Part shown: in pieces, positions 5,201-33,333 of the stretch
How the letters are laid out: every line of letters starts with the position of its first letter
Position numbering within the stretch: the first letter of the stretch is position 1
Assembly: GCA_013036315.1 (NCBI GenBank)
Contig: JAAXMC010000033.1
Coordinates: 1-33,333 of the forward strand
Direction of reading: 5' to 3'
Source: Vulcanimicrobiota bacterium
GTDB lineage: Bacteria > Vulcanimicrobiota > Vulcanimicrobiia > Vulcanimicrobiales > Vulcanimicrobiaceae
Length of the DNA stretch: 33,333 nucleotides
The notes under the pieces: generated by a model
Database searches by the model: none
Seen by the model: only the letters and a program-made list of their open reading frames with translations
What the model was told of the DNA's origin: nothing
Position numbers and translations under genes: made by a program

Positions 5201-6210
5201 GCAAGCTGCATTTTGACGTGGTGGGGGCCGAAGGGCCGAAGCAATTCTTTGCGCGGCTGACCACGGAGACTATCGCGCACGCGTATCTGTTTACGGGCCC
5301 GCCGGGAGTCGGGAAGAAAACTTTCGCGCGCCGTTTGGCTCAGTCGCTCTTGTGCGAGGCGCCAAAGGATCATGTGATCGGCTACGACGGCACGTGCGCT
5401 TCCTGCAAGCTGATTGGAAAAGAAGAGACGCGCCACCCCGACCTGTTGGAGAGCATCGGCGCGCTAAAAATCGGCGAAGCCGACGAGCCCATGGCATTTC
5501 ACGAGGCCGACGCGACCACATCGCGCGATCTCGTGCGGCAGCTTTCGTTACAGTCATATTCCGGCGGCTTCCGCATCTTTGTTTTGGGAGATGTTGATTT
5601 CGCGTCACCCGCGGCGGCGAACGCGCTTCTGAAATTCTTCGAAGAGCCGCCGCCGCGCGTCGTGCTGCTGCTGACGACGGCGACACCTTCGCGACTGCTC
5701 GCTACGATTCGCTCGCGATTAGTGGAAGTGCGCTTTCCGTCGCTGCGGCAGGCCGAAGTCGTGGAAGTTCTTCGCGAAAAAGGCTACGACCAGAAACAAG
5801 CGCAGCTCGGGGCGGCGCTTTCGCAAGGCTCGGTTACGCGGGCACTTTCGGCTCTTTCCGAAGATGAGGAGCAGCTACGCGATCAAGTAGCGCGCTGGTT
5901 TTTCGGCGTCGTGAAAGGCGAGACGCCCGAAGAGGTGTGGGCATCGCGCGAAACGCTCGACGAGGGGCTTGAGATCGTCAAGACGCTCGTGCGCGATTGG
6001 ATCGCGCTACGATCCGAGAGCGGCGCAGCCGGCATCGCGCTCGCCGTTGACTACGCGCCGAAACTAAAAAAGCTTCCGAAGATCGATGCCGCGACGGCCA
6101 CGAATGCGCTCACGAAAATCGGCGAGGCACAAAAACTCGCGCGTACCAACGTATCGCCGGCGCTGGTGAGCGAGCTGGTCCGGATGTCGCTAAGCGGCAC
6201 GGCCGCCTAA
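5197..6210 (+). CDS. holB: DNA polymerase III delta' subunit
   Basis: This is the non-hydrolysing clamp-loader subunit of the replicative polymerase, 337 residues. Domain I has the Walker A-like GPPGVGKKTFA (about residues 32-42). Cysteines in SLLCEAPK and GTCASCK form the zinc module usual for delta' and gamma/tau. LLKFFEEPPPRVVLLLTTA and ATIRSR follow; sensor 1 reads TTA rather than the SRC of gamma/tau, as expected for delta'. The C-terminal helical domain is present. The frame is open for another 339 bases upstream, but ATG 5197 overlapping the tmk stop is the natural start because homology begins there. It is the last gene of its operon and is followed by repeat copy A, beyond which lies a convergent gene. 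Confidence 0.93.
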   Translation: MSKLHFDVVGAEGPKQFFARLTTETIAHAYLFTGPPGVGKKTFARRLAQSLLCEAPKDHVIGYDGTCASCKLIGKEETRHPDLLESIGALKIGEADEPMAFHEADATTSRDLVRQLSLQSYSGGFRIFVLGDVDFASPAAANALLKFFEEPPPRVVLLLTTATPSRLLATIRSRLVEVRFPSLRQAEVVEVLREKGYDQKQAQLGAALSQGSVTRALSALSEDEEQLRDQVARWFFGVVKGETPEEVWASRETLDEGLEIVKTLVRDWIALRSESGAAGIALAVDYAPKLKKLPKIDAATATNALTKIGEAQKLARTNVSPALVSELVRMSLSGTAA

Positions 6211-6215
6211 TATTG

Positions 6216-6380
6216 TGTCATGGTGAGCGGCGCATCTTTGATGCGCCAGTCGAACCACGCTCGAGCGCAGCGCGCGGAAGCGCGCTAAGTCGAGAGCCGC
6301 ATTCCCGCGGGCCTCGACAAGCTCGGCCGCCCTTCGACTTCGCATTTCGCTGGAGGCGAAATGCTTCGCTCAGGATGACA
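6216..6380. repeat. Complete four-arm palindromic repeat, copy A (no gene at its centre)
   Basis: The 165-bp element starts with TGTCAT and ends with ATGACA, a perfect 6-bp terminal inverted repeat. Inside are four arms. Arm 1 (6221-6257) is TGGT-GAGC, an 8-bp stem hairpin with loop TTT, then GTCGA-ACCA. Arm 2 (6259-6297) is GCTC-GAGC, a GCGCGC/GCGCGC hairpin, then GTCGA-GAGC. Arm 3 (6310-6328) is GGCC-TCGAC-AA-GCTC-GGCC. Arm 4 (6331-6374) is CCT-TCGAC, a GCATTTCGC/GCGAAATGC hairpin, then GCTC-AGG. Arms 3 and 4 are the core in inverse orientation. The centre reads CCGCATT, three bases, then GCGGGCC. It fills the space between the convergent genes holB and the membrane protein, so it could also act as a transcriptional barrier. 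Confidence 0.88.
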
Positions 6381-11803: not shown

Positions 11804-11867
11804 GCGGCCTTCGACACGCGCCCTTTGGGGCGCTGCTCAGGCGCCCTTCGACAGGCTCAGGATGACA
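11804..11867. repeat. Half copy of the palindromic repeat (arms 3 and 4 only), copy C
   Basis: Two arms in the TCGAC...GCTC orientation are present. The first is GCCT-TCGAC, a GCGCCC/GGGCGC hairpin with a TTTG loop, then GCTC-AGGC (11807-11842). The second is CCT-TCGAC-AG-GCTC-AGG (11845-11861). The element ends with ATGACA (11862-11867) like the complete copies, but arms 1 and 2 and the TGTCAT end are missing. It lies between the start of the membrane-protein gene and a rhodanese-like fragment. On the minus strand a translated reading would give HPEPVEG, a typical sign of such repeats entering reading frames. Confidence 0.85.
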
Positions 11868-21519: not shown

Positions 21520-22368
21520 GTGAGAAAGCTTCAAAGGCGTTTGCTCGCGTGGTACGCGAGAAATGGCCGCGCGCAATTGCCGTGGCGAAAAACGCGCAAT
21601 CCCTACCGCATCCTGGTGAGCGAGTTTATGCTGCAGCAAACGCAAGTCGAGCGGGTGCTGCCGAAGTATCGCGCCTTCATTAAAACGTACCCGACGTTAG
21701 AGACGTTGGCGGCCGCTTCGGTGGCCGATGTGATTCGCCAATGGCAAGGATTGGGTTACAACTCGCGTGCGCTGCGATTGAAACGTATCGCCGAAACGGT
21801 CGTAAAACAATTCGGCGGCGTGCTGCCGCGCGATCTCGAGTCGCTGCGCTCGCTCAAGGGCATAGGGCCCTATACGGCTGCCGCATTGCGCGCCTTTGCG
21901 TTCGAGTGCGACGACGCCGCGGTCGATACAAATGTGCGGCGCGTCGTGCACCGCCTGACGCTCGGCTCCGAAGAGCCGCAGGCATTGGTGCCGCGCGGGC
22001 GCGGACACGAGTGGAACTCGGCGTTGATGGATCTCGGCGCGGCGATCTGCACGGCGCGCGCGCCGAAGTGCAGCATCTGCCCGCTCCGAAAAGTGTGCGC
22101 CGCGGCGCCGATCGACCCCGCTGCTACGAAACGCGCGCGACCCAAGAGCGCGGCGATTCCGTTTGAACGCACGACGCGGTTTGCGCGTGGCCGCGTTATC
22201 GACCGCTTGCGCCGGCTGCCGGCGGGCCAAGGCGTCTCGCTGCTTGTTCTGCACCGTGAGCTGGCGATGCCGGACCGCACGGCGGACGATCTGAAAGCCA
22301 TCGTCGAATCGCTCGTGCGCGACGGACTGGTAAGCCTGCGTGGGCGGCAGGTCGCGCTGGCGGAGTAG
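21520..22368 (+). CDS. mutY: A/G-specific adenine glycosylase, short form
   Basis: The product, 282 residues from GTG 21520, removes adenine mispaired with 8-oxoguanine or guanine. The catalytic Glu is E35 in SEFMLQQTQVERV. The helix-hairpin-helix is LKGIGPYTAAAL, and the catalytic Asp is D136 in VDTNVRR. The 4Fe-4S cysteines are C177, C184, C187 and C193 with the classical 6-2-5 spacing. E. coli MutY is about 350 residues with a MutT-like C-terminal domain. Here that domain is missing and replaced by a short winged-helix-like tail (RGRVIDRLRRL to LVRDGLVSLRG), as in actinobacterial MutY. The frame is open upstream to 21343 inside the preceding gene, but homology starts at the GTG. The Shine-Dalgarno site is weak. 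Confidence 0.92.
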   Translation: MRKLQRRLLAWYARNGRAQLPWRKTRNPYRILVSEFMLQQTQVERVLPKYRAFIKTYPTLETLAAASVADVIRQWQGLGYNSRALRLKRIAETVVKQFGGVLPRDLESLRSLKGIGPYTAAALRAFAFECDDAAVDTNVRRVVHRLTLGSEEPQALVPRGRGHEWNSALMDLGAAICTARAPKCSICPLRKVCAAAPIDPAATKRARPKSAAIPFERTTRFARGRVIDRLRRLPAGQGVSLLVLHRELAMPDRTADDLKAIVESLVRDGLVSLRGRQVALAE

Positions 22369-22384
22369 CGGTACTCATCCGTCG

Positions 22385-24376
22385 ATGCGTTTAGCAATAC
22401 TCGCCGCGGCTTCGATCGCGGCATTGTTTCCCGTGACCACCTCTGCGCGTACGATTGACTTCTCGGATATACGCCGGCTCACTTCGCTGAGCAGCCCGCA
22501 GATTTCACCCGACGGCAAGCGAATCGTGTTCTTGCGCGGACATCCGGATTTCGTGAAGGACCGCTCGCAAAGCGATTTGATGCTGATCGATATCAAGACG
22601 AAGCAGGTTCGCCAGCTGACGTTCGATCGCCGCGGCTTGAGCTCGCCGCGCTGGTCACCTGACGGATCGCGGATTGCGTTCTTGATGTCGACGACCGTTG
22701 AGGGCGTCTCCGATCCGCAAGAAGAGGTCTTCGTTCTTCCGATGAACGGCGGCGATCCGCGTCCGGTCACAAAAGCTGCGCAGGGCATCGACGGATTCGC
22801 ATGGAGCCCCAGCGGCTCGCAGTTCGCATTCATCACGCAAGATGCCAATCCGTACAAGAAACAGGTCGACGCGCATCTCGACGCATTCGAAATCGGCGCT
22901 AACGACTATCTGCACACCGAAGCGGCGATCCCGTCGCACCTGTGGGTGATTTCGTCAAGCGGCGGAACGGCGAAACGGCTGACGAGCGGTTCGTGGAGTT
23001 TGGGCACGGTCGATCCGGGTGCGACGTCAGAACTAACGTGGTCGCCCGACGGCAAGCAGATTGCATTCGTGCATTTTCCAACTCCGCTCATCGGTAATTC
23101 GCTCGGCGCCGTCATCGACGTGATCGACGTGCGTAGCGGAAAGCGTACGCCGCTCACCGGCAACTCCGGGCTCGAGGGCGCACCGGATTTCGCGCCCGCG
23201 GGAAACGCGATCTCCTATGCGCGCAACACAAACGGCGACGACACGAACGGCAATGCGATCTACGTCACGCGTCCCGGCGGCGGATCCGGCAAAGACATTC
23301 GCGCGCAGATCGATCGTAACATCAACGGTTCCGCGTGGGATCCGAGCGGGAAAGCGTTGTGGCTGTTCGGGCCCGACGGACCGCGCACGGCCGCATGGTA
23401 CGTGACGCTCAACGGCGCGACCAAGCGCGTGAATCTTGGAAATGTGGCGCTTTCACAAACGGGTCAGACCGCGCGCAAAACAGGAGCACTCGCGTTCATA
23501 GGAACGACAACCGGCCACCCCGGCGAGCTGTATTATCTTGCATCGCCCGCATCCCAACCGGTGCGGCTGACCAACGTCAATGGGTTCATAACCAAACTCC
23601 AACTCGGGCGCGTGGCTGAAGTCAATTGGAAGAACGACGGTTTTTCCGAAGACGGCGTGCTCACCATGCCGCCTGGTTACAATTCGCAAAAAGCGTATCC
23701 GCTGGTGCTCGTGATTCACGGCGGACCGCAATCGGCGTCTACACAGGCCTGGAATAGTCAGAACCAGCTCTTCGCGGCGCACGGCTATTTGGTTTTCAAT
23801 CCGAACTACCGCGGCAGCACGAACCTGGGCGATCGCTATCAGCACGCCATTTCGCGCGATGCCGGCGCGGGGCCGGGTCGCGACGTGATGGCAGGCATCG
23901 CGACGGTCGAACGTTCTTATAAGGTAGATAAGAGCCGCATCGCCGTCTCCGGCTGGTCGTACGGCGGTTACATGACTTCGTGGATGACCGGCCACTACAA
24001 CATTTGGAAGGCGGCCGTCGCCGGCGCGGCGCTCAACGATTGGTTCGACGATTACAACGTCGCGTTCTATGTGTACACCGACGTGCCGTGGTTCGGCGGT
24101 TCACCGTGGAATCCGAAATATTCGGCGATGTGGCGCGCCCAGTCGCCGATCACCTACGCGCAAGCGATTCACGCGCCCACGTTGATAATGGGCGACATCG
24201 GCGACAACAACGTAACGATCACCAACTCGTTCAAGATGTATCACGCGCTCAAAGACAACGGCGTGCCGGTACAGTTCGTGGCTTATCCCGTGCACGGGCA
24301 TTTCCCGAGCGACCCGGTTCGTTCGGAAGACGTCACGCGGCGCTGGCTGGCCTGGATCGACCGGTACTTGAGGTAA
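22385..24376 (+). CDS. secreted S9 family peptidase (prolyl oligopeptidase/acylaminoacyl peptidase type), copy 1
   Basis: From ATG 22385 the product is 663 residues. It has a signal peptide (MRLAILAAASIAALFPVTTSA), then a beta-propeller with TolB/PD40 repeats such as SPDGKRIVFLRG and WSPDGSRIAFL. The C-terminal alpha/beta-hydrolase domain has LVLVIHGGPQ for the oxyanion region. Nucleophile Ser525 sits in GWSYGGYMTSWM, with candidate Asp607 in GDIGDNNV and His639 in HGHFPSD. These enzymes release amino acids or dipeptides from short peptides, probably in the periplasm. Its stop overlaps the start of a close paralogue (TAATG), so the pair is an in-operon tandem duplication. It lies 16 bp after mutY. 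Confidence 0.92.
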   Translation: MRLAILAAASIAALFPVTTSARTIDFSDIRRLTSLSSPQISPDGKRIVFLRGHPDFVKDRSQSDLMLIDIKTKQVRQLTFDRRGLSSPRWSPDGSRIAFLMSTTVEGVSDPQEEVFVLPMNGGDPRPVTKAAQGIDGFAWSPSGSQFAFITQDANPYKKQVDAHLDAFEIGANDYLHTEAAIPSHLWVISSSGGTAKRLTSGSWSLGTVDPGATSELTWSPDGKQIAFVHFPTPLIGNSLGAVIDVIDVRSGKRTPLTGNSGLEGAPDFAPAGNAISYARNTNGDDTNGNAIYVTRPGGGSGKDIRAQIDRNINGSAWDPSGKALWLFGPDGPRTAAWYVTLNGATKRVNLGNVALSQTGQTARKTGALAFIGTTTGHPGELYYLASPASQPVRLTNVNGFITKLQLGRVAEVNWKNDGFSEDGVLTMPPGYNSQKAYPLVLVIHGGPQSASTQAWNSQNQLFAAHGYLVFNPNYRGSTNLGDRYQHAISRDAGAGPGRDVMAGIATVERSYKVDKSRIAVSGWSYGGYMTSWMTGHYNIWKAAVAGAALNDWFDDYNVAFYVYTDVPWFGGSPWNPKYSAMWRAQSPITYAQAIHAPTLIMGDIGDNNVTITNSFKMYHALKDNGVPVQFVAYPVHGHFPSDPVRSEDVTRRWLAWIDRYLR

Positions 24377-26382
24377 TGATGAAACTCTTCGGTTTTGTTT
24401 TGGCGCTCGTTGTCGCAACTGCGGCTTCCGCGTCGGCGCGCACGATGGTCTTGGACGACGTTAAGTCGCTGTCTGGTATTTCGGAGGCGACGATCTCGCC
24501 CGACGGCAACGCGATTGCTTTCATTCTTTCCAAGCCCGACTATAAGACGGATCGCAGCACGCGCACACTGATGCTCTACGATCTGCGCGATTCGAGCACG
24601 CGCCCGCTGACGGCGGCGCGCCGCGGCGTCACATCGCCGGCATGGTCGCCGGATGGACGGCGTTTGGCGTTTCTCTCCGTTGCCGGCGAGGGCGACAAAG
24701 CCGCCGAGCAGATTTTTCTATTGGATATGCGCGGGGGCGATGCAACGCAACTCACGCACTCGGCGCTCGGCGTCGAGCAATTTACGTGGCGCCCCGACGG
24801 CAACGCGATTGCCTACGTAACACCCGACGAAGCGCCGAATAAAAAAGATATCGAGCATCATCTCGATGCGTTCGTGGTCGGCGATCAAGCCTATCAAGAT
24901 AAAGCGGCGCCCACGCCCAACCATATTTGGCTGATCAATGCGGACGGCACCGGTGACAAACGTTTGACCGAAGGCACCTGGAGTTTGCCGACTGCCACGC
25001 CGCCGGGTTCGCCCGCTTCGCCGCTTTCATGGTCGCCGGATGGACGGTCGGTCATCTTTACGCGCATGCCCAACGCGTATGACACGGATGGCTATCTGGC
25101 GACGGTCGACGTGCTCGACGTGCAAACCGGATCGATTCGCGCGCTGACCTCGCACGGCAAATACGAAGGGTACGGCGATTTCTCACCCGACGGAACGAGG
25201 GTGGCTTACTGGTATCCGTTTGGGGGAGATCCGGCCGCGCAAAATGATGTCTTCGTAACATCGGCCAGCGGCGGCAACGGCACAGACTTTACCGCCGACG
25301 ACATCGACACGAACGTGGTTCGCGCGATCTGGATGCCCGATTCGAAATCGCTATTGATTGCCGGGCACAAAGGCACCGATGCGGCGCTCTGGCTGAAGCC
25401 GCTCGACGGAGCGGCGCAACGCTTGCAGCTGGGCCCGGTGCAGCCGGTGCAACCCTTCTGGCTCGATGCTAGCGTCAGCAAGACCGGCGCGATTGCGTTT
25501 ACCGGCAGCCAAGCCAATCATCCGGGCGAGCTCTATTACATGAGCTCGGCGAGCGCCGCGCCCAAACGTTTGACTTCTTACAATGATGCGGTCGCGCAAC
25601 TCGACCTGGGCAGAGTTCAGCCGGTGACGTGGACGTCCGAAGGTTTTTCGGAAGACGGCACGCTGACGTATCCGCCCGGCTATGATGCGAGCAAAGCCTA
25701 TCCGCTCGTGCTCGTGATTCACGGCGGCCCGAACTCCGCTTCGATTCTTTCCTTCAGCACGCTCAATCAGCTCTTGGCCGCGCGCGGCTTCCTGGTTTTC
25801 AATCCGAACTATCGCGGCAGCGACAATCTCGGCGAGAAGTACTGGCACGCGATCGTTAACGACGCGGGCGCCGGGCCGGGCCGCGATGTGATGGCCGGAA
25901 TTGCGACCGTCGAGCAAACAGCGCACGTGGACACTTCGCGGATCGGCGTTTCTGGATGGTCGTATGGCGGCTACATGACCTCGTGGCTCGAGGGGCATTA
26001 CACTATTTGGAAAGCTGCAGTCGCCGGCGCGGCCGTTAACAACTGGGTCGACGAGTATGCGCTTTCCGACAACAACGTCACCGTTGCATTCAGCTTCGGC
26101 GGCTCGCCGTACACCGGCAGCTACATGCAAGCATACCGCGACCAATCGCCGATCACGTACGCCTGGAATATCACCGCGCCCACGCTCATTCTCAGCGACA
26201 CCGGCGACGTGCGCGTGCCGATTACGCAATCCTACGAGATGTTCCGCGCGCTAACGGATCACGGCGTCCCGGTTCGTTTCTTTGCCTATCCGGTCGCGGG
26301 GCACTCACCGGGCGATCCGGTGCGCGCGCTGGATGTAAATCGCCGCTGGATTGGCTGGCTAGTTCAGTATCTCAAGCCGTAG
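24376..26382 (+). CDS. secreted S9 family peptidase, copy 2 (tandem paralogue)
   Basis: The 668-residue product starts at ATG 24376 or 24379 (two adjacent ATGs); the longer open frame upstream lies inside copy 1 and is not real. A signal peptide (MMKLFGFVLALVVATAASASA) precedes TISPDGNAIAFIL and other propeller repeats. Ser529 in GWSYGGYMTSW is the nucleophile, with Asp in LSDTGDVRV and His in VAGHSPGDP. The same blocks LVLVIHGGP, FNPNYRGS and DAGAGPGRDVMAGIATVE occur in copy 1, so the two are old duplicates that may now differ in specificity. The segment between catalytic Ser and Asp differs from copy 1: VNNWVDEYALSDNNVTVAF here against LNDWFDDYNVAFYVYTDV. Confidence 0.92.
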   Translation: MMKLFGFVLALVVATAASASARTMVLDDVKSLSGISEATISPDGNAIAFILSKPDYKTDRSTRTLMLYDLRDSSTRPLTAARRGVTSPAWSPDGRRLAFLSVAGEGDKAAEQIFLLDMRGGDATQLTHSALGVEQFTWRPDGNAIAYVTPDEAPNKKDIEHHLDAFVVGDQAYQDKAAPTPNHIWLINADGTGDKRLTEGTWSLPTATPPGSPASPLSWSPDGRSVIFTRMPNAYDTDGYLATVDVLDVQTGSIRALTSHGKYEGYGDFSPDGTRVAYWYPFGGDPAAQNDVFVTSASGGNGTDFTADDIDTNVVRAIWMPDSKSLLIAGHKGTDAALWLKPLDGAAQRLQLGPVQPVQPFWLDASVSKTGAIAFTGSQANHPGELYYMSSASAAPKRLTSYNDAVAQLDLGRVQPVTWTSEGFSEDGTLTYPPGYDASKAYPLVLVIHGGPNSASILSFSTLNQLLAARGFLVFNPNYRGSDNLGEKYWHAIVNDAGAGPGRDVMAGIATVEQTAHVDTSRIGVSGWSYGGYMTSWLEGHYTIWKAAVAGAAVNNWVDEYALSDNNVTVAFSFGGSPYTGSYMQAYRDQSPITYAWNITAPTLILSDTGDVRVPITQSYEMFRALTDHGVPVRFFAYPVAGHSPGDPVRALDVNRRWIGWLVQYLKP

Positions 26383-26413: not shown

Positions 26414-26504
26414 TGTCATGGTGAGCTGTGCGATTGACATGGTGAGATTGTCCTATTTGTCATGGTGAGCTTGTCCTATTTGTCATGGTGAGCTTGTCGA
26501 ACCA
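26414..26504. repeat. Tandem array of left-arm units (period 21-23 bp)
   Basis: Four units each begin TGTCATGGTGAG (the second TGACATGGTGAG) at 26414, 26435, 26458 and 26481. The first three continue with TGTGCGAT or TTGTCCTATT and lack the complementary right clamp. The fourth is the intact arm TGGT-GAGC-TT-GTCGA-ACCA that opens repeat copy B. The array probably arose by slippage or repeated insertion at the element end. It occupies much of the 189-bp gap between the second S9 gene and the GIY-YIG gene. Confidence 0.8.
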
Positions 26505-26947
26505 CGCCCGAGCGTAGTCGAGGGCCGCATTAGGGGTTTCCAAGATGATCGCTCGTCGGGAATGACCATGGATGAAATCCTACTGGGTGTATATGGTCCT
26601 TTGCGACGACGGCAGTTATTACATCGGGATCACGCGCGATGTCGAACGGCGCGTCTGGCAACATAACGAAGGGACAGATCCGAGGTCGTACACGTTTACA
26701 CGGCGTCCGGTGACTCTCGCTCACGCGATGGAATTCACTGAAGTCGATCGCGCCATAAGTTGGGAAAAGCAGATCAAAAAATGGTCCCGTAAGAAGAAAG
26801 CCGCGCTGGCGCGCGGCGATTTCGCCGAGTTGAAGCGCCTAGCTCGGTCGCACTCGGCGTAACGTACCTCGTGCGGGCCTCGACTGCGCTCGGCCGCCCT
26901 TCGACTTCGCATTTCGCTGAAGGCGAAATGCTTCGCTCAGGATGACA
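26481..26947 (+). mobile_element. Palindromic repeat copy B carrying a GIY-YIG nuclease gene at its centre
   Basis: The left half has TGTCAT and arms TGGT-GAGC-TT-GTCGA-ACCA (26486-26504) and GCCC-GAGC-GTA-GTCGA-GGGC (26506-26525), ending CCGCATT (26525-26531). The right half starts GCGGGCC (26873) and has arms GGCC-TCGAC-TGC-GCTC-GGCC (26876-26895) and CCT...AGG (26898-26941), ending ATGACA (26947). From 26873 on, the 75-bp right half is nearly identical to positions 6307-6380 of copy A. Between the halves lie 341 bp with a GIY-YIG nuclease gene on the plus strand, where copy A has three bases. The unit sits between the convergent S9 and multicopper-oxidase genes. No target duplication is evident. 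Mobility is inferred from this arrangement. Confidence 0.7.
26572..26862 (+). CDS. small GIY-YIG nuclease domain protein (UPF0213-like)
   Basis: The 96-residue protein is a stand-alone GIY-YIG domain. The first strand is WVYMVLCDDGS, the second is YYIGIT (the YIG part), Arg26/Arg27 in DVERRVWQHN supply the conserved arginine, and Glu65 in AISWEKQIKKWSRKKK is the metal-binding catalytic Glu. The C-terminal third is basic. GGGA about ten bases before ATG 26572 may be the ribosome-binding site. Proteins of this group occur in many bacteria; activities reported or suggested are nucleolytic, but the biological role is unclear. Its position exactly between the two halves of a palindromic repeat suggests it nicks or processes that repeat or helps it spread; this is an inference. 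Confidence 0.88.
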   Translation: MKSYWVYMVLCDDGSYYIGITRDVERRVWQHNEGTDPRSYTFTRRPVTLAHAMEFTEVDRAISWEKQIKKWSRKKKAALARGDFAELKRLARSHSA

Positions 26948-32747: not shown

Positions 32748-32773
32748 AAAAAACGCAGCTTGCGCTGCGCTTT
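32746..32773 (-). terminator. Intrinsic terminator of the Lys/Pro-rich protein gene (copy 1)
   Basis: On the minus strand a stem CGCAGC/GCTGCG with loop GCAA (32755-32769) is followed by eight T (32753-32746). It lies just after the stop of the minus-strand gene at 32796. On the plus strand the tail is shorter, so it works mainly for the minus gene, but it is also at the end of the VIT gene. The T-run provides the A-run of the VIT stop codon. A near-identical copy is at 33167-33195. Confidence 0.8.
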
Positions 32774-32795
32774 GTAGCGAAATGAAGACGGGTGG

Positions 32796-33107
32796 TTACG
32801 GTTTCTTGGTGGGTTGCGGTGAGGGTTTGATGGGCTTTTCTCTCCCCCTGGGGATGTGGCGCGGCCACGGGCCCTTCGTGGCGTGCGGGGTCGGTTTGAC
32901 GGCCTTGTAATGGCGCTGCCAATAGCCCCTCATGTAGCGCGGGGCGGGTTTGGCGGATTTCGGGCCCTTGCAGGGTTGCATTGCCGACTTGGGTTTGCAA
33001 GGTTTCATGGCCGAGGTGGCCGTTGGAGCTTTCGAGAGCGGGACGGCCATGGCCGTACCGGTCAAAAGGAAAGCCGCCGCTGTTATAGATGCGAGTAGCT
33101 GTTTCAA
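32796..33107 (-). CDS. small secreted Lys/Pro-rich protein, copy 1
   Basis: The 103-residue product starts at TTG 33107, because AAGGAGG lies about eight bases upstream and the signal peptide MKQLLASITAAAFLLTGTAMA follows directly. The mature part has two similar units, SAMKPCKPK and SAMQPCKGPK, each with one Cys. It continues with KGPWPRHIPRG and ends KPSPQPTKKP, giving a strongly basic, Pro-rich and probably extended chain. No family is recognised. A role in binding the cell envelope, metal or nucleic acid is possible, but nothing shows it. An intrinsic terminator follows, and a second, related gene lies upstream and is cut by the window end. Confidence 0.75.
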   Translation of the reverse strand: MKQLLASITAAAFLLTGTAMAVPLSKAPTATSAMKPCKPKSAMQPCKGPKSAKPAPRYMRGYWQRHYKAVKPTPHATKGPWPRHIPRGREKPIKPSPQPTKKP

Positions 33108-33166
33108 AATGTGCTCCTCCTTTCCGTAGGAGTAGCACCGGGTTCGAAAAGGAACCTGCAACTTCT

Positions 33167-33195
33167 AAAAAAAACGCAGCTTGCGCTGCGCTTTT
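33167..33195 (-). terminator. Intrinsic terminator of the second Lys/Pro-rich gene (duplicate copy)
   Basis: The same stem CGCAGC/GCTGCG with loop GCAA and a run of eight T on the minus strand is found here. With its flanks (33163-33236) it matches 32742-32816 with only a few differences. It separates the two tandem genes and shows that the whole gene-plus-terminator unit was duplicated at a spacing of about 421 bp. Confidence 0.8.
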
Positions 33196-33217
33196 GTAAC
33201 GAAATAAAGACGGGTGG

Positions 33218-33333
33218 TTACGGTTTCTTGGTGGGTTTGGGTTTGGGCATCTCTTTCTTGGGCCCTTTCTTCGAGGGTTTGGGCATCGGTTTCTTGGTAG
33301 CTTTTGGATTGGGTCTCTTTTTCGGCCACGGTT
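33218..33333 (-). CDS. small Lys/Pro-rich protein, copy 2 (N-terminal part outside window)
   Basis: The minus-strand frame is open from the window edge to TAA 33220-33218. About 38 residues are visible, starting PWPKKRPNPK and ending KPKPTKKP. The shared PWP and PTKKP segments and the common terminator show it is a paralogue of the copy at 32796-33107. The Lys/Pro repeats are more regular here, with KKPMPKPSKKGPKKEMPKP. The signal peptide and Cys units, if any, lie outside the window. Confidence 0.7.
   Translation of the reverse strand, partial: PWPKKRPNPKATKKPMPKPSKKGPKKEMPKPKPTKKP

Follow-up and report, generated by a model that had tools for sequence, protein, structure and literature searches.

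A GIY-YIG nuclease gene between inverted REP-like hairpins, and the recurrence of this arrangement across bacterial phyla

Why does a complete nuclease gene separate the inverted halves of a dispersed repeat, and does it belong to the repeat? The question is raised by a 33,333-nucleotide stretch of DNA from a Vulcanimicrobiota bacterium (the window), whose closest proteins among named genomes are those of Candidatus Eremiobacterota (Vulcanimicrobiota). Direct reading of the sequence places a complete 96-amino-acid GIY-YIG gene with an ATG start at 26572-26862 on the plus strand, inset 43 bp from the left half (TGTCATGG...GGGCCGCATT, last base 26531) and 10 bp from the right half (GCGGGCC...GGATGACA, 26873-26947) of a repeat copy that we call copy B. 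Each half in this genome contains two arms. On the left, both on the plus strand, are an outer arm (26481-26504; TGTCA-TGGT-GAGC-TT-GTCGA-ACCA) and an inner arm (26506-26528; GCCC-GAGC-GTA-GTCGA-GGGC, then CGC); on the right, both on the minus strand, are an inner arm (26873-26895; GGCC-GAGC-GCA-GTCGA-GGCC, then CGC) and an outer arm (26897-26947; TGTCA-TCCT-GAGC-long hairpin loop-GTCGA-AGGG), the latter with about ten close copies genome-wide. Outside the left half, sequence matches reveal a ladder of truncated outer arms (TGTCATGGTGAGC plus a few bases; 26415-26480, plus strand), the last units of which have a 23-bp period. Elsewhere in the window, two tandem prolyl-oligopeptidase-like genes (22340-26382) are about 75% identical in DNA over stretches, and imperfect short direct repeats (CGGTTTCTTGGTGGGTT...) lie near the right end (32771-33323).

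The arm consensus, drawn from the survey loci described below, is TGTCA-NNNY-GAGC-loop-GTCGA-RNNN. In the window arms the variable bases are complementary across the core, with one G-T wobble in the outer right arm, and GAGC and GTCGA are fixed; a possible drawing of the core has tandem G-A mismatches, then G-C and C-G pairs and a single bulged T. A second copy of the repeat, copy A, has both halves and no gene (6216-6380). As the sequence-only reading had stated, the junction sequences CCGCATT and GCGGGCC are 341 bp apart in copy B and three bases (CCC) apart in copy A, and the right halves are nearly identical, at 98% over the last 60 bp. A third family site in the window is a solo right half (11804-11867, minus strand). 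Genome-wide counts come from pattern and BLAST searches; the copy B region has 54 significant matches in the 1.67-Mb draft genome (57% complete), mostly solo halves or gene-free pairs, and with this many matches the copy B arrangement is not due to chance.

If gene and repeat are linked, genes of the same type should not stand unflanked, and repeat halves should not lie equally often around unrelated genes. On both counts the outcome was mostly favorable to the link. Among the arm boxes listed for the window genome, dapB (contig C60) is the only other gene between convergent boxes within 1.5 kb, and its right side is incomplete, the box there being a bare tag with no full half. One further GIY-YIG gene was detected in this genome (contig C119 of G000, 5516-5731; loci L032/L033). 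It is UPF0213-like and has no arms, but it belongs to a separate branch of conserved location, directly upstream of a peptidyl-prolyl isomerase-like gene, and similar unflanked genes occur in most relatives.

The window protein matches the Pfam GIY-YIG family at 8.6e-17 (61.7 bits; cut-off 22.6). In an alignment of 12 relatives, Y7, Y17, G19, R27 and E65 are invariant, and these include the Tyr, Arg and Glu that serve as the criterion for the GIY-YIG superfamily. The nearest solved structures by sequence profile are UPF0213-like (PDB 1zg2, 5e-20; 1ywl, 9e-16); in contrast to the window gene, the more distant UPF0213-like gene of the same genome is the unflanked one in a conserved setting. Neither NCBIfam nor PHROG returned a match that would give a curated function name, and a partial PADLOC match to UzuA, at 0.027 only, was taken as noise and rejected. 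Orthologues were found in G003 (92% identity) and G001 (79%, with a premature stop near the C-terminus). The window gene differs from its orthologues by a dN of 0.05 and 0.14 with dS above 1 (near saturation), and the gene is therefore under purifying selection.

Sites occupied in one genome can be compared with their counterparts in relatives, a comparison that the sequence-only reading had called for, and among the relatives we found sites that bear the gene, an empty pair or neither. The copy A site is occupied in the window genome and empty in G001, G002 and G004. The gene site, flanked by a prolyl oligopeptidase-like gene on one side and a multicopper oxidase-like gene on the other, carries the gene in the window genome and in two relatives, G001 and G003; three others (G002, G005 and G006) have a pair without a gene there, and G004 retains a remnant. 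The arms at this site differ among relatives in stem and loop, yet remain paired. This polymorphism shows gain or loss, and the change may have run in either direction. In keeping with the proposal that copy A is an empty or non-autonomous form, it behaves like one. A MITE would have terminal inverted repeats in common with an autonomous element, and a target-site duplication. The empty and gene-bearing forms here have their ends in common; no clear duplication could be made out in the empty-site alignments, where the gaps fell inconsistently, and this, like the ambiguous direction of the polymorphism, counts against the reading that we favor below.

A site found with and without the gene in sister genomes would also be expected if a GIY-YIG passenger repeatedly invaded the center of a pre-existing palindromic repeat that it cuts, in the manner of a homing endonuclease. 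The gene is central in copy B and GIY-YIG is a classic homing endonuclease domain. However, at many of the loci surveyed below the gene is bracketed by single arms or stacks of arms, not by matching halves that form a pair, and the arm type that is amplified follows the gene. We consider homing invasion improbable.

A search of relatives with the window protein distinguished two kinds of gene, a window type (about 45% identity or more) and a conserved kind of lower identity. All eleven further window-type loci that we examined have arms nearby, nearly always on both sides, with stems that vary by genome (for example CGCT/AGCG in G014 and CCC/GGG in G011). We then turned to 80 loci picked by protein similarity alone, from comparison of the alignment of 12 relatives with named genomes, so that arms were not a criterion; they come from Vulcanimicrobiota, Peregrinibacteriota, Bacteroidota, Nitrospirota, Planctomycetota, Kiritimatiellota, Chloroflexota, Ignavibacteriota, Myxococcota and Pseudomonadota, mostly as draft genomes, and arms were detected by one definition. 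Arms were present on both sides within 300 bp at 51 of the 80, compared with none of 36 control genes of the other GIY-YIG branch (Fisher, 2e-12). The suggestion that the gene is a recurring part of the repeat system is supported in the genus and family, where the same-type genes examined all have arms nearby, nearly always on both sides, and across phyla. The remaining 29 loci lack arms on one or both sides under the single definition, which counts against the reading that we favor below; many of these are Peregrinibacteria, in which the arms are mostly downstream or of another type. A plain inverted-repeat score was dropped as a test of flanking, since mismatched control pairs scored too; this happened because arms are common across phyla, and the arm definition and the control from the second branch were used instead.

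The arms also have a preferred position and direction. They are densest within 100 bp of the gene, upstream as well as downstream, thin out over several hundred bases and converge on the gene: upstream, 61 are on the plus strand and 14 on the minus, and downstream, 25 are plus and 70 minus. An out-of-sample set of plasmid records was read by eye. In three alphaproteobacterial replicons, two from Methylobacterium and one from Sphingomonas, the gene product has more than 50% identity to the Methylobacteriaceae protein, and each of these genes is flanked on both sides by arms of the GAGG..CTCGA or GAGC..GTCGA type with a CCTCA or GTTCA tag, in reversed orientation in at least one case. No arms were seen beside a Sphingomonas gene of 41% identity, a Legionella gene or a phage gene in the plasmid records.

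Several survey loci merit description in their own right. Some Peribacteria have two or three copies of the GIY-YIG gene per genome (L116 and L145; L110, L142 and L171); the likeness of L116 and L145 is limited to the gene and about 120 bp beyond its downstream end, which is what dispersal within a genome would give. In L113, L119 and L135, from Nitrospirota, Planctomycetota and Myxococcota, a stretch of about 400 bp with the gene and its neighboring arms is 73-80% identical in largely different surroundings, a likeness that probably reflects horizontal transfer. In Dyadobacter sp. 50-39 (L155, 2509-3909), about eight tandem 178-bp units with arms lie just upstream of the GIY-YIG gene. An attempt to delimit a mobile unit from near-identical Flavobacterium loci was abandoned, as these proved to be syntenic orthologues.

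What is conserved in the arms was assessed at 57 loci, one arm per locus, that were anchored on GAGC-N2-4-GTCGA only, with no stem required. Pairs 1 to 4 outward from the core were Watson-Crick in 95, 96, 96 and 95% of arms, compared with shuffled means of 77, 58, 33 and 34%, and all four pair types occur at the outer pairs 3 and 4. Beyond pair 4, these 57 loci pair about as often as shuffled sequences do, and the fixed GTCA tag occupies the 5′ side. With pairing at about 95% and all four pair types at two outer positions, it is the hairpin and not its sequence that is conserved. Kinship among loci inflates the pairing counts, but the compensatory changes nonetheless span phyla. This covariation is strong evidence that the entity recognized would be a folded strand, either DNA or RNA. 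Against the reading that we favor, the predicted folding energy of single short arms is weak and not below that of shuffles.

Covarying hairpins would fit recognition as RNA too, and arms are often found at gene ends. They might then be host RNA elements such as terminators or mRNA stabilizers, with the association reflecting no more than arm-rich intergenic space around the gene. We regard this as scarcely credible: arms become sparser over several hundred bases on either side of the gene, the genes of the other GIY-YIG branch have no arms, no Rfam family matches the arms, and an equal frequency of arms beside other genes of the survey loci was looked for and not seen.

Gene and repeat also go together at the level of whole genomes. 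Relatives with a window-type gene have 35-227 copies of GTCAYSSYGAG per Mb, and those without it 11-35 (p = 9e-7 across 41 genomes and 4e-4 at the level of genera), with the exception of G007. The type of arm matches as well. The arm type beside the G014 gene, GTCACGCTGAGC, has 120 copies in G014 and at most 4 in any of 40 other genomes, and that beside the G011 gene, GTCATCCCGAGC, has 127 in G011, 93 in G007 and 10 or fewer in the others searched. In two genomes, G014 and G011, the amplified arm type is thus the gene-flanking type. Two observations count against the favored reading here. In G016 the match is weaker, the upstream arm type having 11 copies, and G007 has 70 arms per Mb and 93 copies of the G011 type, while no window-type GIY-YIG gene was detected in this genome (70% complete); its gene may have been lost, may lie in the missing part or may be supplied from elsewhere.

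The architecture recalls REPINs and their RAYT genes: the gene is flanked by inverted copies of its own repeat, and many gene-free pairs and single copies are found genome-wide. The analogy drawn earlier on sequence grounds is a good one, with two differences. The tag is TGTCA or GTCA here and GTAG there, and the enzyme is of the GIY-YIG family rather than a Y1/HUH tyrosine transposase. Given the RAYT-REP precedent, a RAYT or other transposase might move the repeats, with the GIY-YIG gene a hitch-hiker or a coincidence. Searches for Y1_Tnp found no RAYT-type transposase in G000-G015, including G014, a single contig that is 99% complete and carries about 120 arms of its own type; control genomes gave matches. 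Moreover, the gene and the arms are found together again and again, in many phyla, and within GIY-YIG this is confined to a single branch. This explanation is disfavored and appears to us very improbable.

The ladders may hold a trace of how the arms change. Truncated outer arms stacked outward at 18-45 bp spacing occur at 23 of the 80 survey loci and beside many copies in the window genome. Of 82 truncated units, 68 adjoin an intact arm on its outer side; the prefix that a unit has in common with that arm most often stops 11-15 bases in, counted from the start of GTCA, which places its end at GAGC or just beyond. A break at the loop followed by slipped repair would yield such ladders.

We favor, as the most economical and probable explanation, a GIY-YIG nuclease with cognate REP-like hairpins, which would stand where RAYT stands for GTAG REPs, the two forming one selfish or semi-domesticated system. 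The GIY-YIG protein would be a structure- and sequence-specific nuclease and the arm hairpin its cognate site, comprising the TGTCA tag, a variable 4-bp stem and the fixed GAGC/GTCGA core. The gene between inverted arms would be the master form, and empty pairs such as copy A and solo halves would be non-autonomous forms derived from it, in the relation that REPINs bear to RAYT genes. When an arm becomes single-stranded, at a replication fork, during DNA uptake or in transcription, the hairpin would fold and the enzyme would cut it at or next to the loop; repair or re-synthesis would then occasionally copy the arm or pair elsewhere, or duplicate the outer part of the arm. Arm cutting, a single-stranded DNA substrate and nuclease-driven spread are the parts of this model that we infer. 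A further point weighs against it: we know of no GIY-YIG enzyme that joins DNA, and transposition would thus need host repair.

The closest biochemical precedent would be Ssn, which lowers the novelty of the proposal. In work of 2025 by Chenal et al., Ssn reportedly emerged as a GIY-YIG family that cuts single-stranded DNA at NTS repeats, present in hundreds of copies in Neisseria; mobility is said not to have been the focus. The NTS repeat is presumably the Neisseria repeat dRS3. Ssn would resemble the present case in being a stand-alone GIY-YIG protein tied to dispersed repeats, and the sequence-only statement that no well-described system of this kind is known was too strong. It suggests another role for the window-type nuclease: recognizing the arms, it might limit or shape the uptake or recombination of arm-bearing single strands, while the repeats would owe their spread to something else and the gene would lie among its own targets for co-inheritance or autoregulation. 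The proteins belong to the same superfamily, and the strong purifying selection on the gene would suit a housekeeping function. The repeats are alike in layout too: dRS3 follows the pattern ATTCCC(N8)GGGAAT (PMC3898611), and in most copies that we read, in viral contigs, GTC directly precedes the ATTCCC/GGGAAT stem on one strand, giving the same order of tag and stem. However, this role leaves the amplified, site-polymorphic empty pairs of the same architecture unexplained, as it does the identity of amplified and gene-flanking types, unless the target type is simply selected. We hold it to be unlikely, though a serious competitor to the cognate nuclease-REP system that we favor.

Among described repeats, the arms are most readily set beside the CGTC-tagged REPs, short dispersed palindromes of several phyla with an unpaired CGTC tag that is often changed to TGTC or CCTC, an 8-9 bp stem that almost invariably begins with A-T pairs and a 4-5 nt loop; they are found mostly as head-to-head dimers, apparently with no transposase dedicated to them (Di Nocera et al. 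2013, PMC3733652). Judged by the available text of that paper, the likeness lies in the TGTC followed by a stem in the window arms and in the GTCA tag at most loci. The arms differ in that their stem, of about 4 bp, leads into a GA/GA mismatch and a GC/GTC core, with a variable loop; the mismatch core of GAGC and GTCGA is conserved, and there are two arms per half in the window genome. Convergent pairs are common here, as are solo halves, although the head and tail convention of the paper may differ from ours. The available text on these REPs makes no mention of GIY-YIG. In the papers searched, we found no description of the core motifs or of GIY-YIG proteins paired with REPs. If the Ssn study already reports flanking repeats in many species, the addition made here is the anatomy of another member.

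Many bacterial genomes are full of short palindromic repeats, and one of the two large superfamilies of these has been published as having no associated enzyme. Across phyla, the survey links TGTC-tagged repeats with a single branch of GIY-YIG nucleases, and this enzyme is probably the partner of widespread short bacterial repeats whose dedicated enzyme had been unknown. More tentatively, GIY-YIG nucleases could be the missing mobilizing enzymes of the CGTC/TGTC-tagged REPs in some ten phyla, and hence a second, non-HUH route by which such repeats spread. The likely target, a tag, an exchangeable 4-bp stem and a fixed core, is defined precisely enough for cutting tests with oligonucleotides, and the data suggest that the target of each such nuclease may be readable from the DNA beside its gene.
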